Shown here one piece after another: positions 23,129 to 63,782 of a DNA stretch of 64,000 nucleotides. Under the pieces are notes generated by a model, which worked only from the letters and a program-made list of their open reading frames with translations, was not told where the DNA came from and ran no database searches. Positions within the stretch are counted from its first letter, which is position 1. Each line of letters starts with the position of its first letter. Both the position numbers and the translations under genes were made by a program. This DNA comes from Ulota crispa (taxonomy: Eukaryota > Streptophyta > Bryopsida > Orthotrichales > Orthotrichaceae): assembly GCA_963920765.1 (NCBI GenBank), contig OY987244.1, positions 14,138,501-14,202,500 on the forward strand, in the 5' to 3' direction.

Positions 23129-24139
23129 CTTATGCAATCCCAATCAAGCATACCAAAAATCAATTTTGAAAAAGCAAAATTTCACTTGTTTATTTTTTGA
23201 TTAGCTTCTAGCAAAATAAGCATATCATCATGCTTTAACCTTTAACCCTTAAAGGACCATAGGGCATAGTATATACATTGCTGCATAATTAGTATTTGCT
23301 ACTAGTAAGAAGGGATTAATTTGAGATTTCAAGTAGCTCTCTGCTTTTATTTATTCTCCTACTTCTTTGTTGATCTCAAATGCAAAAATGGTGGGAATCT
23401 ATTCCAAATACAAGAAAAATACCTCATATTCTACTAGTTGCAGTGGCACACTGTGTCCTTTAGCGGTTAAATGTTGGGTTGGTCAATGTGACTAGCCCGG
23501 CTACAATGATTTACAGTATTATCTAATGTTGTCATTGGTGTAGCAAGTGCTTAGGAAGCTGCAAAAGTCAATAATAAATGTTGATCCCATGAAATTTGCA
23601 ACAAGGGCAATTTGGGACCTAACACTGTGTCTCTGAATTTTCTAACAATTTGGGTTACCTAAAAATATGAGTGCTTCTAATGTGGTAATTTTTTGCCTTC
23701 CATGATAAATCATGTGTTTATGATCACTTTGAAAAAAATCAAATGAAAAACAACATTTTTTTGTCATATAGAATGTTTTTTTGGAGCTTGTAGACAAAAA
23801 ATGTCCTCCTCATCATTTAGGAGTTAAAGGTGTAAACTTAATCATAGTGAACAAATCAAATAGCAAAATCTAATTACCTTACTATAATATCTATTTTACA
23901 AAATTTGGTTATAATCATCCCAATATTAAAATCTTGCATTTTGGAGATGCTTATTAGAAGGAAAGATGTGCATACGGATATTTCTTACACATTCATACTA
24001 TCAAACCTCAAAATCATCACCAATCCTTTTTAATTAACTATCACACAAAATTGCAAATATTATGTAAAATTATTCACCAAAAATGGAATTTTGATATTTA
24101 CGAATTAAAATTTGGTACGCTTGATTGGGATTGCATAAG
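23129..24139. mobile_element. 1-kb element with 29-bp TIRs
   Basis: Arms 23129-23157 (cttatgcaatcccaatcaag...) and 24111-24139 (...cttgattgggattgcataag) are inverted copies with one mismatch. The interior is AT-rich without a transposase and contains the TTAA element at 23246-23466. Target duplication is not resolved, and the superfamily is unassigned. Confidence 0.65.
23246..23466. mobile_element. TTAA-flanked MITE (221 bp)
   Basis: TTAA at 23242-23245 and 23467-23470. Left terminus CCCTTAAAGGACCA; right terminus tgtcctttagcgg, roughly its inverse. It belongs to the CCCCTAAAGG group and is nested in the element at 23129-24139. Confidence 0.65.
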
Positions 24140-24145
24140 AATTAA

Positions 24146-24225
24146 CCCTTGAATGTCATAAAAGCCCTTTGCGGCCGTATGTATGACCGTATGTATAGAT
24201 GTATTTGAGCTACTCTGAGGGTTTA
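24146..24225. mobile_element. Truncated TTAA-type MITE
   Basis: TTAA (24142-24145) is followed by CCCTTGAATGTCATAAAAGC and ggccgtatgtatg, matching the left part of the 224-bp element at 54443-54666 (cccttgaacaccgggaagg, ggccgtatgtatt). The right end is not recognisable. Confidence 0.5.
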
Positions 24226-24987
24226 AAAAAAAATTATGCATCCACCATCATACAACCCTTCAATATGTATGGTTTTAACACTTAATTTCTAATTAATTCA
24301 AACTTTTGAATATTGGTTGCAACCGTATTTGGTACCATAGTTGCAGAGCCCAAGGGCCCTTCAAGATTAAACACCAACAATACAAAACAATACAGTGTCA
24401 ATTACATTCTATACTATGCAAAAAAAATTGAATGATATAATAGGATGTTCCAATCTTTTTGTCCCCCTAGTGTATAATTGTTTGTATGTTCATTTTCTCA
24501 TCATCTTATTATTTCCACTAAACAAGAGGTAAATATGTTTGACATATAGAAACATATATACGGCAACACACTTAATAAACTTGAAATGAATACATTCACA
24601 AAAGTGTCCCACTGGAATTAAGTTCTCACAAGGGAATTTAATAATCATTAGTAAACAACTCATACGGTTTAAAGTTACCATAATAGCTTGACCAATATAT
24701 TGTGCTTCACTATAATTTTCAAACCTATTTAACATAATCAATGCATAATAGACATCTCATAAATTATACGTGTATCTTATTGTTTGTTTTTTCAAGAATC
24801 AGGCAATTTCATAAATGCTATATATCATATAATTAAAAATTCTTGAAAATCATATTTGAATAGTAAAGTCTGTAATGTAATTGGCAAAAAGAACTTCCAA
24901 CCTAGATCAAAGAATTGATCAGCAATTCTTAATCTAGGTAATGTCCTTTGTGCATTAATAAAAGTAAACAAAATGAAGAAGATTTAA

Positions 24988-25534
24988 CCCCTACAAGGCA
25001 ACGGGAAAAGTTTGTTAGTTATCAGAAAAAACTCTCTGCAAGATGGAGAAATTTTTATTTTCATCTAATTATTTTTTTGAATGATCATGAAGACATGGTT
25101 TATCACGGAAGGCAATAAACATCCTCAGCATATGTACACTTTTTTTTAGGTAATCCATATTGTGAGAACATTTAAAGATACTGTGTTAGGTATCACGTTA
25201 GGTATCATGTTGTTTTGCAATTTTTTGAGGTTAGCATCAAGGTCCGGGAAGAACTGACTTGCTAGTTCAAAGCTAGCTGGTTGAAATGAGGAAAAACCAT
25301 TTGCAATTTATAAACACACTAAAATTGGTTTAAAATCTGAATTTTTTTTACAAAAATAACTTAAGGAGTTCCTTGATTAACCAATTCAATACAACAAATG
25401 AAAGAAATCAACTAAAAAATCACAAATATTTTCTGGACCCTGGTCAACATGCACTATTGACTTTTGCAACTTTTGGAAATAGAGATATAATGGCTAATGG
25501 GGGTAGTCATGGTGACTAGCTCAACTTTCAAGGG
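24988..25534. mobile_element. TTAA-type MITE, sub-family with GGTGACCACC end (547 bp)
   Basis: Left TTAA at 24984-24987, then CCCCTACAAGGCAACGGG. The right end gtcatggtgactagctcaac...aaggg is followed by TTAC, a one-base change from TTAA. The interior matches the 25677-26037 copy (gaagacatggtttatcacgg / gaaaggcatggttcattaat; ttgacttttgcaacttt). Confidence 0.65.
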
Positions 25535-25676
25535 TTACCTACACCAAATAGTGCATTTAGATTGCCCTAGACTATATGTTGACCATGCTTGGATTTCACA
25601 TGGTTTACAACTTGAACATTGTTTATTTATTTTTTGATAGCTTTGTAGTGGTTGCAAGGGCCTCAACCCTTAAACG

Positions 25677-26037: not shown

Positions 26038-26099
26038 TTAAAAAAAATTGCAGTAATTAGTGATGGAAATCATTTTTATAGTAGTAGAAGAGCAAGATT

Positions 26100-26739: not shown

Positions 26740-29700
26740 ATGGCGCACGGAAGCTATGGCCGGAAGAGTACAGGGAGGGCGCCTCTGGGAAGAGGAGGCG
26801 GACGAGGCGCATGGCGTGGTGGTCGTGGTGTTGGAAAAGGGACGGGTGGCGTTGAGAAGAAGAAGTCGAAGCTTGTGTCAACTAAGAACCAGATTCGGTC
26901 AATTGAGCGGCTTTTGAGAAAGGTAGGCCATGTTTTTCAAGTTGAGTTGAGCTGCTTTTGAGAAAGGTAGGCCATGTTGTTCAAGTTGAGTTGCAGTAAC
27001 AGTAGTAAGGTAGAAGCACCCAAATGCGACACTTACCTCAGATGTGGTAATTCGGAGGGTTCGGAGGGTCTTTTGAGAATGTAATGGCATGTGCTTGTTA
27101 GGAAATGGGTACATATTCAAGCAAAATTGTTTTCAGAATTTTCTGAGATTGTATGAATAAATTATGAATTGTTGAAGGTGACTCCCTAGATTGACCCATT
27201 GTGGACACTAGACCCTTGAAAAAGTGACAACAAAAAGACCATGTCACACCCAATCATAAACCGCCACCTACATAATTTTTGTTTCCTTATGTCAACTTGC
27301 GTGTCTGATTTGGGTGTTTGGGTGCAGGAGTGTCTAGGTTTAATTTTAGATGTCGATAAAAGGCTAGTGTTGCAATTGGGTGCTCCTACCTTAGAGTGTG
27401 GTTGTTGTACACTAAATATTGTGTTTAGGTTGCCCCACACTAATTTCTCAACATTTCACATTATATAAATATTTATTGCTGCTACAGTAGTCCAATCGAA
27501 AATTACTGCAATAACTCTGTTTTTAAAGGGCCTGTCAACAATAATGAGGCTGCAAAATAAACAAACCAGCGGCTTCCAAGTCATAAACCATGTGAAATCC
27601 AAGTATTTAGAGAGTTGCATGCACCTGAAGTGGCCAAGTGATGAGTCATGAGGTAACTTATCAGGGTAAGGCAACCTAAATGCAATATTTAGTGTAGTTT
27701 GTTTGAGTTCAATTTTGTATTGGGGATGAAGATAGTTCGTTGTGCAGGATTTGCCTGCTGAGGTGAAAGAGGCGCAGCAGAAGCGACTCGAAGAGCTGAA
27801 GCTTCAGTCTGACTCTCATGCCAGGATTGAACTTGAGCGCAAGATGGCCCTTCGCTACCGGAGGGTTAAGTTTTTTGGTGAGTCCATTATGTGTACTCCC
27901 TCTGTCCCTCTAAAAAGCTCCAAATCAGACACATTTCTTGTACCACTAAAAAGCTCTCTTTTGCTGATTTTCAAACGCTGAGAAAGCGTTTGCCATGTTC
28001 AATGATCTCATGGGGGCAAGGGCAAGGTAAGCATGTAGAGGGCATTCCTCTCCTAGCAAGCTTGGCCTTGCCCATATGAGGTACCATTGTTGCTAGTAAT
28101 CTTTAAATCATCAATAATGAGGATCTGGCAACATGCACAAATGTGGTACTTTTTGCATGAAATTCGGGTGCCCAAACAGTGACACCAAAGCTGAAGTTTA
28201 TGCATACATTTGGTAGATGGTATATTGATTCTAGAATGCATGTGTCACTAGCACAAAGACTAACAACACAGTTAATCCTTTGCAAGGAAGCATTTTGGAC
28301 GTTTTTAGAGGGACAGAGGGAATACTTGCTAGATTCAAGTCATTGGACGCATGCCACGGTTTAAGTTTGTTGCACGCAAGTAATCTCGTTGTGGTATAAT
28401 AAGTACGGCTTTGCGGAGCCTTTGAATTTATTGGGAGTTTGGCTGGTTAGATTTTGAGGACGTTATGTGTGTGACTTTATGCATTTTAGCATAGGTAGGA
28501 GTGATTTCTAGGAGATGTACAGTACATAGCTATAGCGAGACTACCTTAGTTACAGGAGCCAAGTTTGTTTCATGAATTTTTTTATTCACTAGTCGCGAAC
28601 CTAGTTTACATCCAAGGATCAGCGTTCATTGACATTTATCCAAGGAATGCTTACACTACTTGCTGAGAAGTCCAACTAAGTGTATGAGTAGATAGTGGTT
28701 TCTGGATAACAGGGTATGGTTTAACAGATGGGATCAGGTCCCAAACGGTTTTGGTATCCTCTACCTTGCTTTTTAACTAAAGTTAAGACTACCTTGTACT
28801 GACGGAAATATGTTTTTCCATCAGAGAGAAGAAAAATAGAGCGCGGAATCAGACGGTTAGAGAAGCAACAAAGAGCATTGCTGGAAAACCTCTCTGATGA
28901 TCACACAACACAGCTGACTACTCTTGCGGACCAGCTCCATGACTTGAAGGAAGATCTTGAGTACATTCGAGTATGTTTTGCGCCTCCCTTGAATACACTC
29001 TTATACCTGTATTGCTATGCCTCTTTTGCAATTTCGTCTTAAATGTGTATCCATTCACTTCTATGACAACTCTAGAACAGAAACTGCTGGCGTTTGGTGA
29101 TCATCTGGAGCTTTTTATGTTAAGTTTTCGGTGATTGTTTAATCAGTTTTTTCCGAAGACCGAGAAGTATATATCTCTGTACATGGGCAAAGATGACCCG
29201 GAGATCAAGCTGAAACGCGATCAGCTGCGTGAGAGGATAAAACATACTTTACTGGCTGCCGCAGCTGCCGGACATGATATAGAAGGTATGCTGAATTCGG
29301 CTTGACGCTTAAAATTTTATCCTTTTGAGTCCATAAGTTGTTCTGTTGAAGTCATTCAGTTACTACGAATCTGTGGTTGTGGTTCAATCATAAAAGTTCG
29401 CTAGTTGACCTTGTGCAAATGTTCAGTAGAATAGGCTATTCCGGTGCCTCTGCAATCCCTGCCCTACCCGTTCCTCCACCTGAAAGTTAAAATGCAATGC
29501 CTCTTATTGAGATATTAACGTGCTCGCCTTTGATGAATGGCTTTAATTCATGTCCATGGACACTAAGAGGAAGCTATTTCCTTATGCTTCAACAATTAAT
29601 ATAATAAACCCAAAATCTCAGTACAAATTAAGTTTTTTGTTCTATTGAATACTTCTCGGAAACGCGAGTAAGCACCACTTAATTAGTCATGACACCTGGT

Positions 29701-31975: not shown

Positions 31976-33236
31976 CCCTTACATGCTTACTAAGCCCCTT
32001 TTTAGCAACATAGCGATTTGGGCAGGAGATTTTCGGAGATTTTCATATTTTAGGCTTGTGGGAATGAGGTTTATCTTTCATGTGCACTAAATTTCATGAC
32101 ATTTGAAAGTGTGAATAAGAAGATATGGTTTAACCTTTAAAGGTCGCAGCAGACGGTTTCCGTCCTTCCAATGGCGAAAAACTAGTTTGGGTTGAAAAAA
32201 AGTTTCTTGCATCCATTTTTTTTCCAAAAGTGGTCATGGAGTAGTGCTCCATTTTGAAATGTCAAAAAAAGACTTATAAATTACCCTCACATTTTTTAAG
32301 TTCTAGTTTGTGAGAAGATTGACAATCGTGGTTGAAGGTTCCATGTTGCCCTAGTTACAATTTTTGTGAGGGCAACTTGCACTATTGACTTTTGCAACTT
32401 TCAAAAATAATAAATAATATGTGGGCAGCACTGTAGAGATCACTGATCACTGTAAAGCACAATTTTGGGGCGGGCACGGTGACCACCCTCGGTGTGTAGG
32501 GGTTAATATGTTTTTTTTTTCAGTTAGTAGATAGCCTAGGCAAATTTTTTTTTTTTCAAGAACAAAAATTTGAAATTGGTTAATAAGATTTATGTGAATG
32601 TGGAAAGTTTTGGATCATTCCATTTCAATCAACGAGATGAAAGTTCTAAGGAGTTTTTGTTTGCAGGAAATTATGGATTCTCTACTCTAAAAAAAACTTC
32701 TTAATCCTTTATTTTACTCAATTTTCATTATTTTAGAAAAAAAACAAAGTCAAAGGATATAAATTGTATATCACAACATTACAATTGTTGGGATTGGCAT
32801 TTTTCATTTGCATAATTAAATTCTTAACAATTTAATGTTTTGAATCATTCTCTACTTCTCTTTACTTACTATTTTTTTTCCCATATGTTGTATAACTCCA
32901 AATGATTTGAAACTTTTTTGACATGTACCCTACTTAGGCGGAATAAGGAATCTAGAGAAGCACCACCCACACAGCCTTTTTTTCTTAGGAACTTCTACTA
33001 CAAAAGGTAGTTGCCCGGTTTTTCACAAGATGTTCTTGAATATTCAAATTGTTGTATTTTCCAAACCATACAATGGTAAATTCTGAATTTTTTTCCAAAT
33101 CTTCTAAAACTATCCTACCACAAAATCCTAGGGTTACATAAGCATTGAATTTTTTTTGTTTGTAAATTTGGTTGATGCTCTAAAAATGGTAGTTTTGGAG
33201 AGTTTTTGGTGAATACCTTGTTTGATCCTTTAGGGG
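31976..33236. mobile_element. TTAA-type element (reverse orientation) interrupted by a nested copy
   Basis: The right end tcctttagggg is followed by TTAA (33237-33240). Read in reverse, the interior follows the 45541-46452 element closely (ccatttttagagcatcaacc; tgtgggtggtgcttctctag; aaagtttcaaatcatttgga; aatttcatgacattt). The left end (31976, after GTAA) is degraded. The element at 32134-32502 splits it. Confidence 0.75.
32134..32502. mobile_element. TTAA-type MITE (369 bp) nested in 31976-33236
   Basis: TTAA at 32130-32133 and 32503-32506. Left CCTTTAAAGGTCGCAGC; right gggcacggtgaccaccctcg then taggggTTAA. The interior resembles 25677-26037 (gagggcaact/gagggcacca, ttgacttttgcaactttc). Confidence 0.8.
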
Positions 33237-33240
33237 TTAA

Positions 33241-34689
33241 ATGGATCTTGCACATGGTTTTTGCAAATTTTTGAATTTTTTACTGTCATAGAAGTTGGTA
33301 AGAATCATTTATAGAATCATCCAACTCAACTCTTAAGAGGTATTTGTAAATTTTCTTGTTAAATCAATGTGAATTTATTTATTGCACAAGCTTTTGCCAA
33401 GTTTGGTGTACTAAGATTTTACATCTTTTTTTGAAGAGCTCTCAAAACTTTGTCCTCCACCCTTGGTGGACCAATGTGTCTATAAACAATCAACTAATCA
33501 ATTGCTAGGTAGAATATAGAATAAAACTCACTTAAAATAAATAGCACTTTAAAGGGCTATATTGCTTGACAAGTTAGAATCGGGTGCTATTTGATTTTTT
33601 TTGAAAACTTGGAACACTTGTCATCCAAGTTTGACGCATGTCAAAACTTTGATAAGTAATGGTGCAATGCTTTCAGCTCTGAAATCCTTCAAAACTGTGA
33701 TCTTTGTTTTTGACATATTATTATTCTATAACTTCCTAAAATATTATCCTAAATTTATTTGTTTAAAAAGATAAAAGATTAGATTACAAAAATGTTGCCA
33801 CTTTCTCCCAATAATGGTTTTTCCAACATCAAAAAAATATTGAACACTTTGTGCTTGGTTTCTTTTACAAATTAGCTTGAAAATAGCCATTTAAACTTCT
33901 GTTATAACCATACGAGGAAAATGTGTTACAATATGCATAAAGTTATTTTTATTTTGAAAACATCATTATTCAAAAATGTTACCTACAATCATGCCACAAC
34001 TAAAAGTCGGTTGATTGGGTCTTCAATGGTTGATACAAATGCAAGTCTCTCTCGTTTATGAGAATACGTACAACCTCATTAAAAATTTGGCATAAAAAGT
34101 CATGACCAATATGTACTCCAAAGCATTTTGAATGCTTTTCTTTGATCTTTGCATTTAAATGTTTACTTTTTTCTAATCTTTGGTAAAGATTAGGTTACAA
34201 GCTAAGTGCTCACCATTTTGACCTTTCTAAAAATCCTTAGATTTTTTTTTACACCCTTCAAAATCTACCTTTGTACAATGAGATTTCTAAATCACCTTTG
34301 CAAATAATTTGTTTTCATCATGATAGATATATCTAATTGGTTTGATTTTTGTCACGCATACTTCCAACACACTTACACAACATATTGTAGTCCCAAGAGT
34401 TACTAGATACAAGAGCACAAGATTTGGAGTTGCAAACCCTTCAAATCAGATTTCCGTCATTTTGAAGCACTCAAAATTTTAAAAAATCCACTTTTAGTTA
34501 CTATGATCTTGTCAATGCTAACAAACTAGATATTGGAAAAAAATTATGGATACAAGATTAAGTTAGCTTTTAGATTGTACAATCAAATGTGGAAAAAAAC
34601 ATCCCAAATACATATTATTGAGTGTTTTCCTAAAGGGCCACAATATTGGTCTCAAAACTAACAACTAGTGTAGGGGAAAATCTCAAAAA
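33241..34689. other. AT-rich spacer
   Basis: No gene, RNA or clear terminal repeat pair recognised. Base composition resembles the interior of the TTAA-type elements, so decayed copies may be present. Confidence 0.35.
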
Positions 34690-35377: not shown

Positions 35378-35700
35378 GGGAAAATTTCATGGATACCCTT
35401 GAAGTTTGCAATATTTGCATAGGTACCCCTGCTTTTTCTGAAATTGCACAAATATCCTTGGATCAAATCATTTAGGCATTTGTTTTGTTGTGCATGTCAC
35501 TTCCCTTCTTTCCTTGTGCGCACATTGCTTCTTTTTTGTTTCACTACATTCCCTTCTTCAACATTGGTCATGAAGGAAATATAAGCACAAAAAATAAATG
35601 CCTTAAAATTATGATCCAAGGGTGTTTGTGCAATTTCTGAAAAAGGCAAGGGTATCTATGCAAATATCACAAACTTTAGGGATATCCATGAAATTTTCCC
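35378..35700. mobile_element. Mutator-like MITE, GGGAAAATTTCATGG family, copy 1
   Basis: The 323-bp element has TIRs of about 60 bp: gggaaaatttcatggatacc at left and the inverse atatccatgaaattttccc at right. Flanks are acaaatcta (35369-35377) and aaaaatcta (35701-35709), an 8/9 match, fitting a 9-bp target duplication. The interior matches copy 2 (cttcaacattggtcatgaag). Confidence 0.88.
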
Positions 35701-35709
35701 AAAAATCTA

Positions 35710-36897
35710 TACTCTTCTATAATGCATTGGATTTTTGGTTTTTCTTAGGCTTTAAAAAGCTAGAAAGCTAAATAAAAACTTCCAACTTCAAGCCTATACA
35801 AAAAAATGAAGAAAAAGTAGTGTCTTGATGCCAGATGTTAGTCAATGTTCCAAATCTAAATGCCTACCACACATTAGAAAAATGAATATGTTGTTGCTTG
35901 TGGCCAATCAATTAGGAACTTAGGCAAAAAACAATGAGATCTTCACTCCATGTGAAGCCATATCATTTGAGAATCAAGCTGCTCTTAAGTTTCTTTGAGA
36001 TACCGTATCTTTTGTGATAAATTTTTGGATTTTATAACCACTTTTTCAAAAAATTCATTCTTGCAACACCAATTTTTGATTTTAGAAAAATTTGGGCACA
36101 ATCAACAAGCTCAAAGTGTAAATACTTGCAATCTAATTTTGCACTAAAAAAAATCTGGTGTGGCCATATCTGCACCATTGAAAATGATCATATGGCTCCT
36201 GCCGGTCCAAAACCAAAAAAAAAAACCTTGATTGGAGTACGGTCCGTTCAGATGTTTTACATCCATTTAGTGGATGTGCTAAAGCTTCATCCAAGACTAT
36301 TCATCTTCACGCTCTTCGTTGCAAGCCTCTGCCTCACATCACCGTTGTGAGCTCCTCCCGATCGTCCGCCGCTGCGTTGTCAAGCAAAGATCCACCAAGT
36401 AAGTGAAAAATCCCGTCTCTCTCTCCATTCCTTGCTGATTTCGAAAGCTTAACGAGTATATTATTACCCGCGGCACTTCAATTTTCAGTAGTTTCTGTTG
36501 TTCGAGCTGCTGTGGACGAGAACAGAGCTTTTTTTTCAAGTTTTAGGGTTTAGTGATGTCGATAATAGCTAGGAGCATGTCTGTACGTAACATTTTTGAG
36601 TTTCTGTATTGGAGTTTTCTGTTCTCGTTGTCGACGTTAATGTCCAACTGATTTCTTGTGCGTTCTTTGGTCGCATGAATTTTTAGGGTTTTATCTGGCG
36701 TTAATAATCTGTCGGGTTTGAGTAAGGTTTTTTGTGGCCGACTTCACTATCTCGTTTGTAAGATTTTCTGGTCATCCTTGAGAGTGAAATCTTTCAATTC
36801 TTGTTTGGTAATTTGTGACTTGCGCGTGTTGGAACTCTTTGGTGTAAATTTAATCCGGAATTTTAGAACATGGATGTTTAGTTATTTGAAACTTGTG
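35710..36897 (+). promoter_or_regulatory. Spacer and SNRNP27 upstream/leader region
   Basis: The distal part is AT-rich without features. From about 36200 base composition rises. A possible leader exon ends at atccaccaa/gtaagtga (about 36398), and telomere-like tagggttt motifs occur at about 36542 and 36684. Leader splicing to the acceptor gctgtgacag (36940) is plausible. Confidence 0.4.
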
Positions 36898-39073
36898 ATG
36901 ATCATCGTGACTCATGGCTTCGAACGTTTTGCTGTGACAGTGGATCGAAGACGCGAACGAGGAAGGGGCGGTGACCGTGAGAGAGAAAGAGACAGAGAAA
37001 GAGAAACGGAGAGGGATCGCGACCGAGGAAGAGACAGGGATCGGGAATGGGAGAGGGAGAGGGAAAGGGAGAAAGGACTGGATAGAGAGAGAGAGAGGGA
37101 TAGGGACAGGGACAGAGAAAAGGGACGAATCAGATCGCATACGAGATCCAGGTCTCCTGTCGACAGGCATCGTCGCTCACCATCGCACGATCGGCCACAC
37201 AGAGCGGACGACAGACGGGATAGCAGGAGAGAGAGAGAGAGGAGCAAAGGCAGAGAGAGGAGTCGGGACCGAGAAAGAAGCAGAGATCGCGGTTATGGAG
37301 GAGATGAGAAAGCTTTAGACAAAAGGAGCTCCGAAAGGAGAGACAAACGAGACGGTAGCCATGGACTGGATGGCCAACGGGCAGCGATTGTGGCGGAGTA
37401 TGTAGATGGAATTGCCAGCGAGACTAAGTCTGAGTATGCTGCTGCGCCTGCGGTGGACGAAGATGAGAAGCTTATGAAGAGGCTTGGGATACCGACTGGT
37501 TTTACCACGACAAAGGTGAGCCTATTTCATTATCATTACACTTTATTTTGTGAAAGAAGTAGGCATAGCCTGTGTGTGCTGATATGCATGTAATGATATT
37601 CATAACGCTGATCAGGTCACTCATGTCCTCCACTTCCTGCTCTTAAAGCACATAAGCCTATTACGTTTACTTGTATAGTACACTTTAAAAGTCCTTGTAA
37701 GGTATGTACACCCATAAGCACCACTGTCCCCATAACCGTCACCTCTGAATTCTTGGAAAATCTGTGGAAGTGAATAGATGTAATGACAAGGATGTACAAT
37801 ATGTGAACATGAAATCTTAAAAGTGGTTATGGGTGCAATGGCAATTTGCTCTTTAAAAATTCACAACTTATTCTCACAGTATCCAAATAATACATTCAAA
37901 AGTGGAAACTCATTATTTTTCTGTTCCTAATAGGATCCTATAATTTGCTAGCTGTTTATTGCTACTCATCATGTTCAAAATCCTATGTTCAAAATCCTTA
38001 GTTTGACGCTTATGGGTGTACATACCTTACCAGAAACCAAACAACATCACTGGCAGTGACGTCGTCTATTGATTCAGGGATTTCAGGGTCCGTTAGAAGT
38101 GGATGCCATGCATGTTGTGCCGAAGTAGGAGTGTTTTTTATCAGTAGGAAAAATTTCATGGATACCCCTGAAGTTTGCAATATTTGCATAGATACCCCTG
38201 CTTTTTCAGAAATATGACAAATACCCTTGGACCAAAATTTTCAGGTGTTTGTTTTGTTAGGCATGCCACTTCCCTTCTTCCTTTGTGCGCATGTGGCTTC
38301 TTTATTGTTTCATTGCATTCCCTTCTTCAACATTGGTCATGAAGGAAGTACGAACACAACAAATAAATGCCTAAAAACTTTGATCCAAGGGTTTTTGTGT
38401 AATTTTTGAAAAAGCAGGGGTATCTATGTAAATATTGCAAACTTCAGGGGTATCCATGAAATTTTCCCTTATTAGTATAATGTGGTGTTTTAGTAGCGTC
38501 TTCTGTCATTTCTATCTCAATACTTGAGAGCGGGCCCTTGCAATTTGGGCTGTTGGAATCGTGAACTTGCAGTGATTGCCTTTTCTCACGTTTGTTTGTT
38601 CACCTTGACGAGGTTGCTTAGAGGACTTTCTTAAAGAATCAACTAGTGGTTTAGACCTTTAGATGGACAATCTCAATTTTTAGGCTGTGGTTATCTGCTC
38701 CTCAGTTTTGTTGTGTTCATATTTTGGTCTTTGAGACAGGGCAAATATGTCGTGGATGCTAATCACAGTGCGGTGAAGCTCACTACGAAGCGTACGCCAC
38801 GCCAGTACATGAACAGAAGAGGTAACCGCCGCTTACTTCTCCTATCCTCATGTACATATCTGATGCTATATTGAGGCGTTTCCATATTTGTTCCTTGGAG
38901 TAATATACATTTTCAACTTTGTATTGTTACTGGAGCTGTTGTCCAATGCGCAACGTATTGCTTGTTCTTCTTTCGTGTCTGAGGGCTGTCAGATATTTAG
39001 TAAATTTTTCGTGGGTGTGATGATCATTGCAGGTGGATTTAATAGACCACTTCCTGCCGAGTCTAATAGATGA
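36898..39073 (+). CDS. SNRNP27: U4/U6.U5 tri-snRNP-associated protein SNRNP27 (RY1/SNUT3 family)
   Basis: Exons 36898-37515, 38740-38821 and 39033-39073 give about 246 residues. The first exon is a long RE/RD/RS domain (RERERDRERETERDRD..., SRSPVDRHRRSPSHDRP). It is followed by the signature C-terminal domain: DEDEKLMKRLGIPTGFTTTK, GKYVV, KRTPRQYMNRRGGFNRPL and a last PAESNR. That domain binds in the spliceosomal tri-snRNP near the U6 ACAGAGA/5' splice-site helix in the family. The start is uncertain: ATG 36898 is the last in-frame Met before the RS domain, but an acceptor (gctgtgacag, 36940) suggests that the true start may lie in a leader exon. Intron 1 carries two MITEs. The RS domain is longer than usual. 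Confidence 0.9.
37700..38027. mobile_element. TA-flanked MITE in SNRNP27 intron 1
   Basis: Perfect TIRs AGGTATGTACACCCATAAGC (37700-37719) and its inverse (38008-38027), flanked by TA on both sides (37698-37699, 38028-38029). 328 bp. Confidence 0.88.
38147..38468. mobile_element. Mutator-like MITE, GGGAAAATTTCATGG family, copy 2
   Basis: The 322-bp copy lies in SNRNP27 intron 1, with flanks ttatcagta (38138-38146) and ttattagta (38469-38477), an 8/9 match. TIRs ggaaaaatttcatggatacc and the inverse. Same orientation as copy 1, 2.8 kb away. Confidence 0.9.
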
Positions 39074-45537: not shown

Positions 45538-45540
45538 TAA

Positions 45541-46452: not shown

Positions 46453-46456
46453 TTAA

Positions 46457-49391: not shown

Positions 49392-49614
49392 TACAAACAA
49401 GGGTAAAAGTAACAATTTGCTTTTATATGATGGAGTTGGTCAGCTATGTCCTCCTCTGTATTTCTATGGTGCAAGATAGCAAAAAAAGCAACAAAGACCT
49501 AACATTATTATGCTACAAGATAGCAAAAAAAAAAAACAACAACAACAAAGACCTAATTGTCATATGAGTTGTTAATAGTATCTTTGAATAAATTGAAACA
49601 CTTTGTAATTTTAA

Positions 49615-50586
49615 CCCCTAAACCACAAATAATTGTTTGTTCAACAGCAAGTTGAAAGTTTAGGTAGGTTCCTAATCCTATGAAGTCAAATTTTGGCCGA
49701 TGTTTCTGAAATTTGGAGACAAGGTGCACACAATGAACATCTTTGTGTGAAAAAAAAAACTCCAATTGGATGCTGGAGAGATAAATTATGCTACCCAAAG
49801 GAATTTGGGCAGCTTGGATAGTTAGACATCTTTGGAGAATTTTATGCTAAAACTCTCATCAAACCTTTGAAATTTGGCATGTATGTAACTCATAAAATAT
49901 GGTATACAATTGACAAAATAAAATAAAAAATTGAGCTCTCAAATTGCATTCTAAGAGGAGTCAAACTTTGTTAACTATGTCCAAGCAGTCTCAAGAAAAA
50001 AAAAAAAAAAAAAAAAAAAAAATCCTCTAAATTCTAGCCTTATTATCTTGCAATCTCTAAACTCAAACTTGTTGAAACTTTTTTTGCATATTTTGGATGT
50101 TTGTCTCCAACTTTTTACCTTTCAAATTTCAAATAGAAGATTTCCTCATTGCACAAGAAATCATGAAAGAATGACTAGTGTATTGCCAATTCACTTAACC
50201 TCCTTGCATTGCAAGGTGATTTGGAATAAGCTAGATTCTATATTTGCTGCTAACATTTTTTGTGAGTGAACCCAACATCATATTCTTGTGAAAGGCCAAA
50301 AACCTTATTTTTGTGTGGACCAAAATTTTTACTTTAGGAGGGCTTGAAGTTGCTGACCTTGTTTTGCAAGAATGAAAAAATTGCTTTTCTCACTTCAAAC
50401 ATTATAGTCTTATAATCTGCACGGTCAAATAGGCTGAAATATCTACCACACATTGCCTTACTTGTATATTACACTTTTGTAGAGTTGAATCTCAAAAAAA
50501 AAAATCAAATTAAAATTTAAATAAATCACCAAAAAATGGCAATTTTGGTCTTATTTTTCTCAGTAACACCCTTTGGGCTTTAGGGG
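49615..50586. mobile_element. TTAA-type element, 972 bp
   Basis: TTAA 49611-49614, then CCCCTAAACCACAAATAATT. The right end tttgggctttagggg is followed by TTGA (changed TTAA). It is homologous over its length to the outer element 55666-57572 (ttatgctacccaaaggaatt; gtcaaactttgttaactatg). It holds a 27-A run at 49996-50022. Confidence 0.85.
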
Positions 50587-50590
50587 TTGA

Positions 50591-51106: not shown

Positions 51107-51110
51107 TTAA

Positions 51111-51983: not shown

Positions 51984-52384
51984 TTAAAATTGATGTTTTG
52001 AGAGTTCACAAACCAACGTCTCCAACCTCATGCTCTGGAATAGTGGAGATATTATCTTTAAAAGAACCATAGATGAAACCTTGGAAAAATGATTATCTAC
52101 AAAAATTTCCAAAAATACAAGTTATTTCTTCATTTGTTTCAAACTGGTTGTAGTGGCCTGTGTGGCCCTGACATGTGTGCTTGCTTTTGGATACACAAAT
52201 GACCAGGCTTCTAGAACTTCTAAATTTTGCTGTTGATGAGCGGAGATAATCCAAATTCCCAACACCAAAGTGTTGAAAATGTTTTTAGCCACATTTGAGA
52301 CCATGGAGACCATGAGCGTAGTGGTCTCCAGGTAAAAATTGGTAAATTTTGCCATTATCTTAACTCATTTTGCCACTATTTTAA

Positions 52385-53312
52385 CCCCTAAAGGACTGTT
52401 GTCCCTTTAGGGGACAGGTTGGACTTTGGACATGTATCTACGATTAAACTATTTTGTGGGATTTTTGAAACTTTTATTAATGGTGGGGAATTCAAAGATC
52501 TACGTGAGCATCTAATTTCTTCTTCATTTTGATGTTTAACAAAGAAGATGTGCATGAATTTCAGAAAATTTGGGGAGGACTGCCCATCTGGGCAGCCCAA
52601 AAACTTCTTTAAAAATTACTTTTTTTTAAAACAAAAATTTGAAATTGGTTCTTTAGATTTTTTTATTCATGAGAAGCTTTGACTCATTCAATCTCAATCA
52701 ATGACACAAAAGTTATGAATTTTTTTTGTTTGCAGGCAGTTTTGGAATCTCTACTCTAAAATAAACTTTGAGGTTCTTTATTTTACTCAATTTTCAATAT
52801 TTTAGAAAATTAAATAAAGAAAAGGAAGTAGATTGTTTATCACAATATTAACACCATTGGAATTTGAATTTTTCATTTCCATAATTAAATATTTAACAAT
52901 TTAGTGTTTTGACTCGTTCTCTACTTTTTTTTACTTACTATTTTTTCCCATGTGTTGTACAGTTCCAATTGATTTGAAAATTCTCCCACGCATACCTAAC
53001 TTGATCTCCTACATGGAAAAAATTAAGCGCAACTTTGGATAGAGCAATTTTTTTGTTACTAGAGTGGTCAAAGGCTTCTGAAAATCTTGAGCAGCATGGA
53101 AAAAAACCTTTTTTTTCACTTTAGATGTAAATATCTCACTCCTCTCCATTTGGAATGAGCTGATTTTTTTCCCACAAGTACCTCTTCTAGTATGGACAAG
53201 ATCCTTAGTTGGATTTTCAAAAAACAAAACATAAAAGCCCTTTTTTCTAAACCTCCTAGAAATGACAGTTTTTAGTGATTTTGGCATAGTAAAGGGCATG
53301 GTCCTTTAGTGG
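52385..53312. mobile_element. TTAA-type element, 928 bp
   Basis: TTAA 52381-52384, then CCCCTAAAGGACTGTTGTCC; right atggtcctttagtgg then TTAA 53313-53316. A subterminal palindrome tgtccctttaggggaca follows the left end. The left end matches the inverted right end of 56023-56972 (tttttgaaacttttatt, tggggaatt). Confidence 0.85.
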
Positions 53313-53319
53313 TTAACTC

Positions 53320-54390
53320 ATTTTGCCACTATCTTAACTCATTTTGCCACTCACCACCTTAACCCCAAACAACCCTAGAGATTCTTGAGCTTCTAGGAAT
53401 TTGCTCTAATTTGAACAAAAAGTCAGCATTTTGATAAGTTCTATCAATTTTTTTGAATTGTAACCATATAAAATTTAATTAGACATGTTAGAGATTACAT
53501 TAGAAAAGAATACACAACAATATCTCTTATGGATTGAAAGATTATAATGTTTGATCATGAGCGTGTTAAAACTCTGAAAGTGATTTGAAATCTTTCAATC
53601 TTCTTTTTATATGTCAAATTTAAAAAGTTGGTCACCAAAAAAATATGAGGTTAAAGGGCCTAACATGCATAACCCCAATCATTTTATGACTTCTCAAAAT
53701 CTACTCTACAATTTTTTTAAATGAATTTCTAATGTGATTTTTTATCAAAGATCTAGTATATTTGAGGCTCATTCCCAAAAGCCCTCAACACTACATAAAA
53801 TCAAGATTGCAATGAACACCTATGCACAAAATTTTGAATAGAAAAATCATGATTAGTCATTTTCAAGATCAGATTGTTGAAATTAAAACTAAACTTCAAA
53901 AAAAAAATTTCAAAAAAAATAAGCTACTAAAAACAATAATTTGGTAAGGTTTTATTTAACTTCAAAAATTGGTTGAGGACACATTTTGCCCTCAATGATA
54001 TTTTGAGGTTAACATTAGAGAAATTAGGTGAAAATACGAATAAAACAGCCAAATCCTTCTCAAACAAAGAAATATCAAATTCGCCAAATTTTGGATGAAA
54101 GTTTATAATACCATCTGATTTCACGGATGAACAGATGCCCACGGATGGTTCCATCCCTTTTTCCCTTACCTGCGAGGACTGTAGGGAGCGTGTCGCTCGA
54201 CCAATGAAAAACCAAGAAATACTGGGACCACTGGTCCCTGCTAAATAATGACAAAGGTGGCGGCTTGCTAGTAAACAAGTCAGAGAATCTGATGAATCCC
54301 CCCGGCTGGAGCATGCGATCTGAGCCGTAGATTTGGGTAGAGCAGAGTGCAAGAAAACAAGTGGGATATGCTGTTGGCGGCCGCGCACTA
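53320..54390. repeat. Spacer with a duplicated segment
   Basis: The stretch 53990-54160 (gccaaattttggatgaaagt, tttcacggatgaacagatgc) recurs at about 55440-55600 (gccaaattttggatgatggt, ttttatggatgaacatgcac), flanking the TA element at 54391-55022. A 162-codon minus-strand frame overlaps but has no family. Confidence 0.5.
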
Positions 54391-55022
54391 AGGTAGGAGC
54401 ACCCAATTGCAACACCAGTCATTCTCCGACATCTAAAATTAACCCTTGAACACCGGGAAGGCCCTCTTTGGCCGTATGTATTTCTGTGTATACAACGGAT
54501 TTGAGGGGGTCTGAGATGGAATTAGGGGTCACTATGTAAATGGAAGTGGTCTCTCTTGCAAAAGTACTTTCAACGCAACCTTTGACAGCACAAATACGCA
54601 AAGAAATGCTTGAAAATTTGTAGAATACGGTGCCGTACCTCAGGAGCCCCGACAAGCGTTCAAGGGTTAAACTTTAAGTAGACAGATTTGCACCCAATCA
54701 AGACACAAATGCACCTAAATCAAACACGCAAGTTGACATAAGGGAATAAAAATTGTGTAGGTGGCAATTTTTGATTGAGTGTGACATGCGCGTTACATGG
54801 TCTTGTTGTTGTTGCTTTTTCAAGGGTCTAGTGTCTACAATAGGTAAGTCTAGGGAGTTGTCTTCAACAATCCATAATTTATTCATATGATCTCAAAAAA
54901 TTTCAAAAACAATTTTCCTTGCACCTGCATCCATTTCCTAACAAGCCCATGCCATCAAATTCTCAGAAGACCCTCCCAATTACCACATCTGAGGTAAGTG
55001 TCGCATTTGGGTGCTTCTACCT
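54391..55022. mobile_element. TA-flanked MITE (AGGTAGNAGCACCC family), copy 2, interrupted
   Basis: TA 54389-54390 and 55023-55024. Left aggtaggagcacccaattgc, right gcatttgggtgcttctacct. It is copy 1 (27008-27391) in inverse orientation, with a 224-bp TTAA element inserted at 54443-54666. Confidence 0.88.
54443..54666. mobile_element. TTAA-type MITE (224 bp) nested in 54391-55022
   Basis: TTAA 54439-54442 and 54667-54670. Left CCCTTGAACACCGGGAAGG; right ccccgacaagcgttcaaggg. Copy 1 of the host element has a single TTAA at the matching place (gtttaattttagatgtcg, about 27340). A truncated relative is at 24146. Confidence 0.9.
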
Positions 55023-55024
55023 TA

Positions 55025-55661: not shown

Positions 55662-55665
55662 TTAA

Positions 55666-57572
55666 ATCCCTAAAGGTCAAAGTGATTGTTCAACGGCCAC
55701 TTGAGAACTCAAATAGGGTCATATGGAGTCAATTTTTGTTGGATGTTCTCAAAGTTGTTACTCAAGATGTAAATATGTATGTATCCCCAAGTGGAAATAT
55801 AATTGTTTCCCCAATTGGATGCTCCATTCAAAAGTTATGCTACCCAAAAGAATTTGGGCAGCTTAAGCATTTTGAGCATCTTTGGAGAATCTTATGCTAA
55901 AACTCTCATCAACTTTTGAAATTTGGCACGTATGTAACTAAAAAGACATGGTGTACAATTGTCAAAAAAATAAATAAATTGAAGTCTCACATCACATTCT
56001 AGAAGGAGTCAAACTTTGTTAACCCCTAAAGGCCCAAGCCTTTTTTTTTGTGAAAATCACTCAAAATTGCAACTTTTGGGGGAGTGAGGAGAAATGTAAT
56101 TTATTTATTTTTTTTGGACATCCAACCAGAAGATCTTGCCCTAGACTACGGGAGATACTTGTGGGAAAAAATCAGCTCATTCTAGTAGTAGAAGAGTGAG
56201 ATATTAACATCTGAATGTGCATTTGAAGTGAAAACAAAAGTTTTTCCCGTGCTGCCCAAAAATTTCAAAAGCCTTTGACGGCTCCTATATCAAAAAAATT
56301 GCTCTACGCAAAGTTGAGGTTTATTTTTCCCATGTAGAAGACCAAGTTAGGTAAATGAAGGAGAATTTTCAAATGAAACGGAGGTGTGGATCATACTTTG
56401 TAAAATCTTGCAATGTCGTAAGGTCATGAAACTTGCATATACACTAGGCAAAATTGGAGGATTTATGTAAAATTCAAAAGACCCAAATTACTTTGATCTA
56501 GAGGGTGAAAACCAAGGAATCTTAGTCTACTACAACTTGCAAAAAAAAAATCAAAAAACAAATACACATAGAGCTCAAAAAAGTAAAAGCAACAAGTTTT
56601 ACAAGGGAGAAAAGGAATGGAGGTTTGGGAGTCCCATACCTACCCGCAAACTAAAACTTCTCATAACTTTCATCTCATCTATCAGAATTGAATGATTCAA
56701 AGCTTCCCAAATACATAAAATTTTAAAGAATCAATTTCTAAATTTTATTTTAAAAAGTTTCTTTTTTTTAGCTGCCCTATTCTCCCTTGTTTTTCAATTC
56801 ATGCATAACTTCTTCAATAATTGTCAAAATGAAGGAAAAATTAGATTCTCACGCAAATCTTATAATTCCCCATCTTCAATAAAAGTTTCAAAAACTCACG
56901 CAAAGTAGTTTAGCCATAGGTACCTGCCCAAAATCCCATTTGTCCCTTGAGGGGACAATGGGCCTTTAGGGATTAACTACGTGTGGGCAGTTTCAAGAAA
57001 AATTCTTTTCTTCTAACTTCAAGATCTATTATCTTTCAACCTATAAACCAAAAGCTCTTGATGTTTTTTAAAACATTCCAAAAGTTTATCTCTTACTTTT
57101 CACCATTTAGATTTCAAATAAATGACTCCCTCAATGCACAAAAAATCATGAAAGAATGACTAATGTATTGCCAATTCACTTAACCACCTTATGTTGCACG
57201 GCAATTTAGAGTATGCTAGATTCATAATTTTCTCTTAAAACTTTTCATGAGTGTAACTAGCAAGATTTTGATATTAGTGAAAAAAAAGCTTTAATTCATG
57301 TAGACCAAAATTTTGACTCTAAATAGGCTCAAATTTTGCTGACCCATTTAAGTAGGGACAAAAAACTTTTTATAAATTTTGAATGCTATAGTCTTTTAAT
57401 CTGTGTGGTCAAATGGGCTAAGATTTTCTGCACTCAATACTAAAATAATTTACTACAATTTTGTACAGTTGAGGTATCAAAATTAGTTTTCAAATTAGAA
57501 TTCACATCAACATATTAGAAAAACATAAATTTGGGCAGTTTTTGGTAGAAACACCCCTTGGGCCTTTAGAGG
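55666..57572. mobile_element. TTAA-type element interrupted by a nested relative
   Basis: TTAA 55662-55665, then atccctaaaggtcaaagtg; right ttgggcctttagagg then TTAA 57573-57576. Without the insert it is about 950 bp and aligns with 49615-50586 (tatgctacccaaaagaattt, gagtcaaactttgttaa, gaatgactaatgtattgcca). Confidence 0.85.
56023..56972. mobile_element. TTAA-type element, 950 bp, nested in 55666-57572
   Basis: TTAA 56019-56022 and 56973-56976. Left CCCCTAAAGGCCCAAGCC; right atgggcctttaggga. The homologous uninterrupted site reads ctttgttaactatgtccaag at about 49966-49985, with one TTAA. Confidence 0.93.
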
Positions 57573-57587
57573 TTAAAGGTTGCCTTA

Positions 57588-57710: not shown

Positions 57711-57714
57711 TTAA

Positions 57715-58623
57715 CCCTTTAAAGATCACACACATTTCCCCAAAATCCACTAGAAACTAAGGCAGTAAGATTGGATGTGCATTTGAATCAAATATGGACC
57801 CAATTTGAATAATCCAACCATACAAATGTGAAGGACACCTTGTTTGCTGCAGTGCATCAAAATTTCAGCTAGATTTATCTTTGGAGGTGAAATGTTATAA
57901 TGATTGAGTGAGCCGTATATGGAAAATCTCTAGTTTTTCATGCTTGTGTGGTTTTGAATGGTAGCGCTTCATGCAAGCTTTGATTGAGAAGAGTCTTACA
58001 TTTCTAGAAAGTAGGGTTTCCCACCTTTCCAACAAGACTAGTTTCACTCAAAATAGACAAAAATAGCAATCACAAGGTGTAGCTAAGTGGACAAAAAGGG
58101 TCAAAAGTCCCGTTTTCTTTGCTACTCTAAAACAATTCTACAATAAATGTGAAATTTTTTATTGATTATCTAATCGGTGAAAGCAATCAAGAATTGGCCT
58201 TAAATGTAGGATGAACTTTCTAAAATAAATAAATTGATAGTATCATTTCAATGGATTCTCAAATAGTACAATTGTATTACTACCGTATAAAGAAACAATA
58301 CAAGCGCATTTCTTGAGTAACTTGAAGTTTTTTAAGATTGCACAATTGAAATGTGGCATTCTTCTTGGATGTTTGATGTATTGTGGTGTTGCTTTGATCC
58401 ATTTTTGACCAAATATAGATACGTATTTTGAGGCCATGATGTATAAACACCATTATTTATCAACTCCCATATCCAATTCTATTGTCGTTTTTTGGGTTGG
58501 ATGCAAAATTCTTGTGATCACAAGCATTCTTCAAGATCAATTTCCAAATTGTTGAGCAATTTTCCTCTATAGGCCAAAAACTACTCTCCTGAACCAAAAT
58601 ATGGTTCGGTGGTCTCTAAAGGG
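57715..58623. mobile_element. TTAA-type element, 909 bp
   Basis: TTAA 57711-57714, then CCCTTTAAAGATCACAC; right ggtggtctctaaaggg then TTAA 58624-58627. It adjoins the Tourist-like element, sharing TTA bases. Confidence 0.75.
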
Positions 58624-58885
58624 TTAACTTGGAAGATAAACACATTTTTACTTTAAAAAAAATAGTATAAATTTGCCCCTGTTGTGAATTTATTCATTTT
58701 TACCCAAAACAACCGCGCTCAACAAATTTCGAACCCGTAAATGAATTCAGTTTTTTAAAATTCAACTTACGTTGATAGAATTTCTAAATTCCGGCGTTTT
58801 CCCGGGTAAAAAAATCCTGAGTTCAGTTGAAGACTTGACGGGAAAGGAAGAGTCTCCAAAAGATGGAGGCGGGCCCTTTGATTAA

Positions 58886-59850
58886 CCCCTCAAAGGGGAC
58901 CAAAAGTGTTCTGTCATAGTTTAACACTCCAATTTGAATTGCTGTAACTTTTACATATATTGTCCAAATCCAATAAAATTTGTTGGAACAGTTGCGAATT
59001 CTAGTCTAATTTCTATGGTTAAAATTTCAGATCAATCTGTATCACATTAAGCTTGTGAAAGCCAATCGAAGTTCACAGGGTCAATTGGAGTTCACCACAC
59101 TGTACTGTGATGGTTGCAACTTTGGAGACTTGTATCTTTTTCATCAAATATTTTTTCAACAAAATTTGTTGGATTTTGTTTCCCTTAAAGAGTAGTAAAT
59201 GTGGTAGATTTTTCATGTCAATTCAAGTTCCTTTGAATGCTTGGGGAGCAACTCAAGGTTCAAATTCCACACATTTTTGCATTACAATGAACTTTGATGG
59301 CTTATAACTTCTTCATACAAAGTCTTTTTTCATCATTTTTTGTTGGTAAAGTTGTGTATACTAGTCTAGTTACTATTGGTAAAATTCCATATCAATCCAA
59401 AAAGTTATGAATGAATGAGAAGCATTTTAGTAGAGGGAGGTATAGCCATAGATGTGATTTTTTGCTACTTTTTTCATTGTTTTTGGACATTTCAAAACAA
59501 TTTTGCAGACATAAGGGGTCTACTAAATGATTTTTCTTTTCACCAATGTGTTAGGTTATTGGTTTTGAATCATTTTACATTTTCAGTATTTTCATTTGAG
59601 TAGGTTTAGATATCAAAATTCACCCCCAAAAGTGTTTTGAGGAAAATTTCAGCATCTTTTTTTAACACTAAAATATTATAATCTTCCAATCTATGTGGTC
59701 AAATGACCCCAAACTTGATTCACATCATCTAAAACATACACACTACAAAATTATATAGTTGAGATTTTCATACTTTATTTACATTTAGACTTATAGCACT
59801 TTAGAAGCAGGGATGCGTTTGGGGCTCTTTGGACCTTAGGCGATGAGGGG
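58886..59850. mobile_element. TTAA-type element, 965 bp
   Basis: TTAA 58882-58885, then CCCCTCAAAGGGGACC; right ggaccttaggcgatgagggg then TTAA 59851-59854. The interior is AT-rich without a coding region. Confidence 0.7.
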
Positions 59851-59854
59851 TTAA

Positions 59855-62071: not shown

Positions 62072-62314
62072 GGTAAGGTGATGTGTTCTAATTTGGTGAG
62101 GTACTCTAAAATGGTGCACTCCAAGGAATGGTTGACATTGTTCCTTCAAATGTCTATTACTATCATTGATGAGGTAAGTGGGTTTAGCAAATAACATAAA
62201 TTGTTAAACCACCTACCTCATTAATGACAGTAATAGATATTTGAAGGAACAATGTTAACCATTCCTAGAAGGGCACCATTTTAGAGCATTGCACCAAATT
62301 AGATCACATTACCT
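62071..62314. mobile_element. 244-bp near-perfect hairpin MITE
   Basis: TA at 62069-62070 and 62315-62316. Arms of about 113 bp (ttccttcaaatgtctattac against gtaatagatatttgaaggaa; ggtttag/ttaaacc at the loop) with a loop of about 17 bp. Confidence 0.85.
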
Positions 62315-62319
62315 TAGGA

Positions 62320-62851
62320 GGCTCATGAATTGATCATCTAAGGGAAAGAGGACATATGTAGAAGATTCAAATCAGCTCAGCAATTTGGAAATATTTTTGA
62401 TAGAAAGTCAAAGAAGAAATAATTCTATAGCCATATTCCTAATTAATGTTGATATATTGTATATGCTTTCCTATGTTGTATTCAAATGGGGTGTTTGGGT
62501 AGTGCATGAATCCCACTTGAGTTGTAAATTTCAAGCCAAGTCACAAACATTTTACCGGTCAACTAAAAAGTTTGGGGAAATCTTTGACATTTCTCATAAA
62601 GTTATTTCTTCAAGTATTAAATGGTCCTTGTATGAACAAAGACAACCCTTTTGGTAGCAACATCCTCTAGAGGTTTATTTGAATTTTTTTTGAGTTGGTA
62701 TGAAGTAGCTCCAATTTATCAAAGCAAAAGGCACATGGGTTCTATTCTAGATTGTAAGTAGTAGCACTTATGCTTTCAAAGCAGCTTGTGAATAGGGCGC
62801 ATGAGTCCAAAAAGTAACCACTATATAATCAAGGGTGCTCAAATAAGTCCT
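62320..62851. other. AT-rich spacer
   Basis: A 90-codon open frame (62385-62657) shows no recognisable domain. Nothing else seen. Confidence 0.4.
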
Positions 62852-62855
62852 TTAA

Positions 62856-63782
62856 CCCCTAAACTACCAAGGCCATTTTTTGCCAAAAACCACTCAAAAT
62901 TGCACCTTTTGTTGCGTTTATCAAAAATTTCAACAAAATGTTGTTCTCAAAAATCTAACCATGGGATCTTGTAATGGGCTTATAGAAGAAGAAGTAGGAA
63001 AAAATTTGTGACATTTGACCATACGGATTGAAAGTTATGAGCATTTGAAGGATTTTTTTATTTTATTTTTTATTTTTTTATTTTTATTTTTTTCCCATTG
63101 TGCCTGAAAATTTCAGATGGCTTTGGCTAACATTTGCTGATTTTTTTTGCACTATTGACCTTGAAGTTGTAATTTTTTCTTATAGGTAATCAAGTTAGAC
63201 CTTTGTATACCAATTTTCAAGGCAATCAAAGACACAAAGCACATCCTAAAATATATTACAATGCCACTATATGACAAGTTTTGCAAATAATCTATGACAT
63301 TTTTGAGTGAATTTTCCACCATATAGTTTTAGATATGGAAAATCCAAACAATGTGCTTGAAGATAAACATGTACTTCAAATGTCAAAAAAAAAGTTAAAA
63401 AACTCTAAAACTCTAAAATTTAGAAGCTCCCAAAGCTTAATCTGACCTTCTAGTTGGAAATGAAAGGAGCCAATGACAAACTAATGGGGACCACTGAAGC
63501 AAACATGTGGCAATCCCTCTGTGCTCACCCCTCTGTGCTCACCCCCCTTCAAAGTCAATAATTTCTCCCTTGCCCAAGCTGCCCTTCAAATTGCTTTTGG
63601 CCAAAAAAAAGCCCATAACTTGTGAACTATGTGACATAATCACATGATTTTTTGCATCCCACAAACCTTATACATTCCTACACACTTATAAAAAGTTTCA
63701 AAAATTTATGTAAAAAATTGGGGTCACAAGAGCCTACCCAAAATTGTGAAAGTCCCCAGAGGGGACTTTGGGGCTTTAGGGG
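62856..63782. mobile_element. TTAA-type element, 927 bp
   Basis: TTAA 62852-62855, then CCCCTAAACTACCAAGGCC; right tttggggctttagggg then TTAA 63783-63786. Subterminal palindrome agtccccagaggggact near the right end, as in 52385-53312 and 56023-56972. Confidence 0.85.

Follow-up and report, generated by a model that had tools for sequence, protein, structure and literature searches.

Short TTAA-flanked elements with piggyBac-type ends alongside piggyBac transposases in what appears to be a seed-free land plant

The 64,000-nucleotide stretch of DNA presented above (the window) carries numerous short elements that are flanked by TTAA and end in a common inverted terminal motif. They are very probably non-autonomous DNA transposons of the piggyBac superfamily, that is, miniature inverted-repeat transposable elements (MITEs) of ~0.23-1 kb, presumably mobilised in trans by a piggyBac transposase of the same genome. 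Directly observed are the ends, empty sites with a single TTAA, copies that match from end to end, the nesting of one element in another, transposase genes, and transposase-bearing elements whose ends are of the same type. According to the proposed mechanism, ~5-kb elements of the same genome would supply the piggyBac transposase, which would recognise ends of ~16 bp (TTAA, then CCCYTNANNGNC). The element would be cut out, presumably by cut-and-paste chemistry, and inserted at another TTAA, so that TTAA then stands on both sides. The mobilisers of these MITEs would be either the transposases described below or sister lineages outside the sample that have CCCCTAAAGG ends.

The abundance of the terminal motif was determined in 274.8 Mb of genome sequence (157 contigs), with each pattern read backwards as the control. 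The exact motif TTAACCCCTAAAGG occurs 15,411 times (7719 and 7692 on the two strands) versus 1 and 0 times for its reversed form, the broader pattern TTAACCCYTNANNGNCC 31,318 times (15,685 and 15,633) versus 9 (4 and 5), and CCCCTAAAGGACC 9,597 times versus 3. Since the reversed patterns are nearly absent, a chance origin of the motif is ruled out for the genome as a whole. The TTAACCCYTNANNGNCC count corresponds to about one exact MITE end per 9 kb. The share of sequence occupied by grouped elements together with their BLAST relatives is 15.7% in region A, a part of contig C1 chosen since TTAACCCCTAAAGG matches were known there, 11.4% in the window, and 10.7% and 7.0% in two blind-picked 50-kb stretches; the figures are unbiased for these two stretches only, both of which are small.

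An exact TTAA directly precedes 8,154 of the 9,597 CCCCTAAAGGACC ends in the genome (85%). An earlier reading of the window from its letters (the sequence-only reading) had claimed TTAA flanks and had proposed a genome-wide tabulation as a check; in that tabulation TTAA prevails, and not the non-TTAA flanks that had been named as counter-evidence. In stretches that had not been retrieved by means of the motif, TTAA stands before 31 of 33 CCCCTAAAGG ends, a count to which region A, picked as described, contributes 21; the two other ends, preceded by ATAA and CTGT, both lie in the window. By sample, the proportion was 4/6 in the window and 3/3 and 2/2 in two blind-picked stretches. The bases beyond the TTAA display no strong preference.

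To find sites that lack the element, the two flanks of each of 55 candidate pairs were joined and the sampled sequence was searched with the result, pairs near the ends of stretches being excluded. The search yielded 32 rows from 14 of the 55 pairs, of which four rows from three pairs were aligned; the remaining rows, several of them from a tandem array or from overlapping pairs, were not used. The element at window 62852-63786 has an empty-site paralogue on C1 (region A 37943-37786); the ungapped alignment spans 158 bases with 81% identity, and the paralogue contains a single TTAA at the insertion point. For an element of region A (32821-33755) empty-site paralogues were likewise found, two of which were aligned. 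The paralogue of window 54439-54670, at 27394-27278, contains one TTAA as well; its left flank aligns well and its right flank only with gaps. The best empty-site case is the nested insertion at 56019-56976, which interrupts another element of the window: in three uninterrupted relatives of the host element (at locus L006, at L004 and in region A) a single TTAA occupies the site, in ungapped alignments with 60, 63 and 49 of 83 bases identical. The single TTAA at empty sites further bears out the target site proposed earlier.

A search of the genome with the profile PF13843 (DDE_Tnp_1_7), in which 116 of 528 candidates were scored, revealed 120 matched stretches, the best with an E value of 1.3e-73 over positions 2-349 of 349. 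Ten of the 120 are free of stop codons. A frame of 365 residues at locus L039 matched PF13843 at 8.1e-63 and, among the structures of the PDB, piggyBat (9c0f, 2.5e-20) and piggyBac (6x67, 7.2e-19). The 15 best loci, four of them on the minus strand, are 29-81% identical to one another; the three catalytic Asp residues (DDD) are present in nine, and a Cys-rich C-terminal motif, loosely defined and counted with no control, in 12. No PF13843 match was obtained in 14 control genomes, a control that says little, as GRAS and dynein were also unmatched there. In the transposase copies L030 and L040, which are 69% identical and both contain stops, the first two of the catalytic Asp residues are replaced by Asn (TYNEIM, CNN.FT). 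Matches to the transposase or to GRAS with equal or nearly equal scores lie on opposite strands 10-110 kb apart at C7:18203169/18223004, C2:36765124/36779670, C10:676128/785346 and C2:15289761/15300149, which suggests large inverted duplications or assembly artefacts.

Three transposase elements of 5.0-5.1 kb were traced to both ends; their inverted repeats of ~16 bp are of the same type as those of the short elements. The element on C3 measures 5027 bp and is bounded by TTAACCCCTCATCGCC and TTAACCCTTCATTGCC (each written inward), and that on C2 measures 5102 bp, with ends TTAACCCTTGACCGCC and TTAACCCTTCACCGCC; PF13843 matches inside both. C10 carries a copy of the C3 element (5026 bp, 90% identical) with TTCA in place of its left TTAA, and a transposase locus on C4 has the right end TTAACCCTTTAGCGAC. 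All six intact ends of transposase elements (both on C3, both on C2, the right ends on C10 and C4) fit the formula TTAACCCYTNANNGNC. Among 16 transposase loci, a full 16/16 end was found at four, both sides having been traced at three of them and the right side alone at one; at L040, one of the other 12, a match in 14/16 positions lacks TTAA. MITE ends are so frequent that one lying alone beside a transposase might be there by chance. Two observations argue against coincidental ends: the similarity between the C3 and C10 elements starts at the left end of the C3 element and breaks off no more than one base from its right end, and in the C3 and C2 elements the left end lies equally far (~2.5 kb) from the domain.

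The same ends recur in short elements. Over 16 bases, the right end of window 58882-59854 and the left end of the C3 element are identical. The pattern TTAACCCYTCAYYGCC, which covers both ends of the C3 element and the right end of the C2 element, occurs 1,264 times in the genome and 0 times reversed, and among the first 100 places listed 14 facing pairs have a length of 637-663 bases and four of 952-982 bases. These short facing pairs are MITEs that carry the ends of transposase elements. For the CCCCTAAAGG subgroup the link to the transposase is shared end type, not identity. The piggyBac assignment made by the sequence-only reading from ends and target site gains PF13843 transposases inside elements with the same end type, and neither of the two refuting outcomes that it had named was obtained. 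Of the longer elements that it had proposed to look for, those captured at 16 loci agree as to piggyBac and the end type, and none has exactly CCCCTAAAGG ends.

The short elements are non-coding, present in many copies and bounded by terminal inverted repeats, as MITEs are. In the sample, 39 of 70 candidate pairs fall into nine groups that match from end to end, with sizes of 0.22-0.97 kb (~0.23, 0.65, 0.73 and 0.9-0.97 kb) and 57-92% identity among grouped copies, in agreement with the earlier claim that the groups are alike in their ends only. The other 31 pairs are singletons; some of these coincide in part with members of the groups and were probably paired wrongly. A tandem array at ~634531-635235 of C1 (region A 94531-95235) was read a second time as one of the nine groups (0.46-0.48 kb); it comprises ~3 units of ~234 bp of the TTAACCCTTAAAGG type and represents a MITE family in transition to tandem repetition. 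In view of the 57-92% identity among grouped copies and of the stops in all but 10 of the 120 transposase stretches, present activity is not claimed.

Several findings weigh against the assignment of the short elements to piggyBac. None of the 16 loci yielded a transposase element with CCCCTAAAGG ends; 12 of them were seen to 1.5-kb flanks only and have no full end within those flanks, a weak test given that left ends, where known, are situated ~2.5 kb upstream. At the C4 locus no left end was found in the 3.2 kb upstream, the interiors of the MITEs are not similar to the two ~5-kb elements, and 15% of the CCCCTAAAGGACC ends lack an exact TTAA, through decay or otherwise. The MITEs might instead derive from another superfamily that duplicates TTAA, Kolobok or Sola3, with piggyBac merely coexisting in the genome. 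Sola3 also uses TTAA, and it speaks for this explanation that no CCCCTAAAGG-ended transposase element was captured at the 16 loci. Kolobok, too, inserts at TTAA (PMC6004289; this paper and the others cited here are drawn on in excerpt). However, the Xenopus Kolobok ends printed there begin with AGCGATTC or AGTGATAC and not with CCC, the published piggyBac end motifs include CCCTT, CCCTC and CCCAT (PMC10813416), and the transposase elements of this genome fit TTAACCCYTNANNGNC at all six intact ends seen. We consider such an origin improbable; Kolobok is disfavoured by the printed Xenopus ends, those here beginning with CCC, and transposases of Kolobok and Sola3 were not searched for.

It is very unlikely that TTAA is a fixed target of which TA alone is duplicated, as by a Tc1/mariner-like element with an ACCCC end. 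A T-TA-A target with TA duplication yields identical letters, and sequence alone cannot separate a 4-base duplication from a fixed TTAA with a shorter one, a further point to be held against the piggyBac assignment. Nevertheless, the whole TTAA is kept at 8,154 of 9,597 ends with no strong preference in the outer bases, and the transposase within elements of the same end type is that of piggyBac. Spread by segmental or tandem duplication in place of transposition, which the tandem array of one family on C1 (~634,531-635,235) might bring to mind, is scarcely credible, since it is contradicted by the exact TTAA joints at empty sites and by the nested insertion; moreover, the two transposase-element copies on C3 and C10 are alike nowhere beyond their ends.

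The elements share with piggyBac and piggyBat (PF13843) the TTAA on both sides, CCC-type ends, a DDE_Tnp_1_7 domain with DDD and a Cys-rich C-terminus. They differ in the length of the transposase elements, 5.0-5.1 kb versus ~2472 bp for a well-defined piggyBac (PMC10813416), in the seed-free plant host and in the very large number of MITE ends. The same source gives TTAA and the end motifs CCCTT, CCCTC, CCCAT and CACTA for piggyBac. Like the piggyBac-type MITEs of animals, for example those described from a coral (PMC2872659), the ones found here are short, non-coding and probably served by a transposase in trans; unlike them, they form many sequence families with common ends, in a plant. Kolobok and its MITEs resemble the present system in TTAA sites and MITE abundance and differ in Xenopus ends that begin with AG and in a different transposase (PMC6004289).

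The sequence-only reading called piggyBac rarely described in green plants. This must be qualified, as the superfamily has been named in plants in print: one review counts PiggyBac as one of seven MITE superfamilies of angiosperms (PMC10004981), another includes it among the class II superfamilies of plants (PMC10794571), and a table for Ceratopteris gives 1,230 PiggyBac copies with 122,417 bases, or 0.00% (PMC6890710). What stands is the unusual abundance and diversity: in contrast to that Ceratopteris annotation, this genome contains 31,318 exact termini (in 275 Mb) as well as transposase elements and empty sites. The kind of element is known; its abundance, the diversity of its transposases and its clear anatomy are unusual for a seed-free plant. 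Searches of an open-access library listed no paper in which piggyBac or MITEs have expanded in a seed-free plant, which is weak evidence of novelty. A grass genome paper (PMC8319324) mentions piggyBac once, and of two occurrences of 'piggybac' in a paper on the moss Niphotrichum one is the word 'piggybacking'.

More tentatively, and with the balance of our opinion somewhat against it, piggyBac may be a leading DNA-transposon lineage of this seed-free land plant, perhaps still active in part, in which many transposase lineages (29-81% identical), each with its own version of the common end, stand beside MITE termini that number in the tens of thousands; together these would constitute a native plant piggyBac system. 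piggyBac is a widely used gene-delivery transposon that is treated mainly as a family of animals, fungi and protists. An expansion of this kind in a plant would allow the entry and spread of piggyBac in plants to be studied and could show how one end formula diversifies alongside the transposase; a plant-native piggyBac, if usable, might serve as a footprint-free tool.

In the window, exact TTAACCCCTAAAGG occurs four times, with starts at 52381 and 56019 on the plus strand and ends at 33240 and 46456 on the minus strand, and there are many further similar ends with 1-3 mismatches. When a match of at least 14/16 to TTAACCCYTNANNGNC is required, the window has 20 left ends and 21 right ends, versus eight matches of the reversed pattern over both strands, which is why some weak single ends may be due to chance. 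Thirteen end pairs, some decayed, were taken as elements, 12 within 23242-63786 and one at 20758-20999, close to the "about fourteen" elements of "0.2-1 kb" reported earlier. At least 14/16 positions match in 25 of the 26 element ends; the exception, the right end of 24142-24371 (13/16), was accepted because copies stop there. TTAA is exact on both sides of nine of the 13 elements, and in the other four one TTAA has decayed (at 45537, 50590, 55663 and 24371). For ten, a copy that matches from end to end was found elsewhere in the sample (for 55663-57576 as two halves); none was found there for 20758-20999, 54439-54670 and 58882-59854. Among the 41 scored ends, 16 remain unpaired (7 left, 9 right). 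The pairing 53359-54014 was dropped, its right side being no end, and five others were dropped for overlap with other pairs. In accordance with the sequence-only reading, a model built from 15 transposase loci detected no trace of a transposase in the window at E values up to 1. The elements are as follows, without strand except for the single unpaired end, with ends given as left and right.

20758-20999: 242-bp element, ends TTAACCCTTAAAGGAT and TTAACCCCCAAAGGAT (15/16 and 14/16), TTAA on both sides; outside the span of the sequence-only reading.
23242-23470: 229-bp element, TTAACCCTTAAAGGAC and TTAACCGCTAAAGGAC; copy in region A (C1) 81096-81330, 80.5%, end to end.
24142-24371: 230-bp element, left end TTAACCCTTGAATGTC, right end decayed (13/16); copies at B 7938-7706 (84%) and A 32288-32521 (84%).
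32130-32506: 377-bp element, TTAACCTTTAAAGGTC and TTAACCCCTACACACC; copy at A 77981-78357, 78%, end to end.
33227-33240, minus strand: unpaired right end of a longer element, TTAACCCCTAAAGGAT; 32500-33241 matches L002 1678-2401 up to the end of the L002 element.
45537-46456: 920-bp element, CCCCTAAAGGACC at both ends, inverted, left TTAA changed to ATAA; copy at A 21785-20861, 65%.
49611-50590: 980-bp element, TTAACCCCTAAACCAC and TCAACCCCTAAAGCCC; copies at A 52748-51786 (75%) and L004 (74%).
52381-53316: 936-bp element, TTAACCCCTAAAGGAC and TTAACCACTAAAGGAC; copies at L007 1501-2443 and B 15264-16202, 88% each.
54439-54670: 232-bp element, TTAACCCTTGAACACC and TTAACCCTTGAACGCT; partial empty-site paralogue at 27394-27278.
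55663-57576: ~0.96-kb element split by 56019-56976, TAAATCCCTAAAGGTC and TTAACCTCTAAAGGCC; its halves match L006 1503-1856 and 1852-2461, and also A 65884-66241 and 66238-66837.
56019-56976: 958-bp element nested in 55663-57576, TTAACCCCTAAAGGCC and TTAATCCCTAAAGGCC, TTAA on both sides.
57711-58627: 917-bp element, TTAACCCTTTAAAGAT and TTAACCCTTTAGAGAC; copy on C2 (T2 2829-1917), 92%, end to end.
58882-59854: 973-bp element, TTAACCCCTCAAAGGG and TTAACCCCTCATCGCC.
62852-63786: 935-bp element, TTAACCCCTAAACTAC and TTAACCCCTAAAGCCC; weak end-to-end copy at A 28984-28091, 58%.

Repeats of other kinds are also present in the window. An element at 27893-28325 has 32-nt inverted ends (91%) that start with GTACTCCCTCTGTCCC; we take it to resemble Stowaway. 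Two related long hairpins at 35378-35700 and 38146-38469, with arms of 60 and 109 nt that are 87-88% complementary, both contain AATTTCATGGATACCC and GAAGTTTGCAATATT and are not of the TTAA type. At 42601-43031, a 36-nt inverted repeat (97%) begins with CATTAGAGGAAAAATGAGCTC, its arms separated by 359 nt, and a motif similar to this repeat adjoins an element at the C3 locus.

With regard to the host, 62 stretches of the genome match the GRAS domain (best E value 6.5e-143) and 41 stretches, at about nine loci, match dynein heavy chains. Many GRAS genes mark land plants, which sustains the plant lineage assumed by the sequence-only reading. To our knowledge, flowering plants and conifers have no dynein heavy chains; those found here suggest a lineage with swimming sperm, away from the flowering plants, and both families together suggest a seed-free land plant. 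With a genome of 275 Mb, the host is likely to be a bryophyte, a lycophyte or a water fern. Putative host exons of the window are an Arg/Asp-rich frame at 36679-37593 (plus strand) that has no Pfam match, a weak AP2-like frame at 40250-41641 (minus strand; E value 6.3e-4, under the Pfam cut-off) and a CDK5RAP3 exon at 19203-19865 (plus strand; 2.8e-11).

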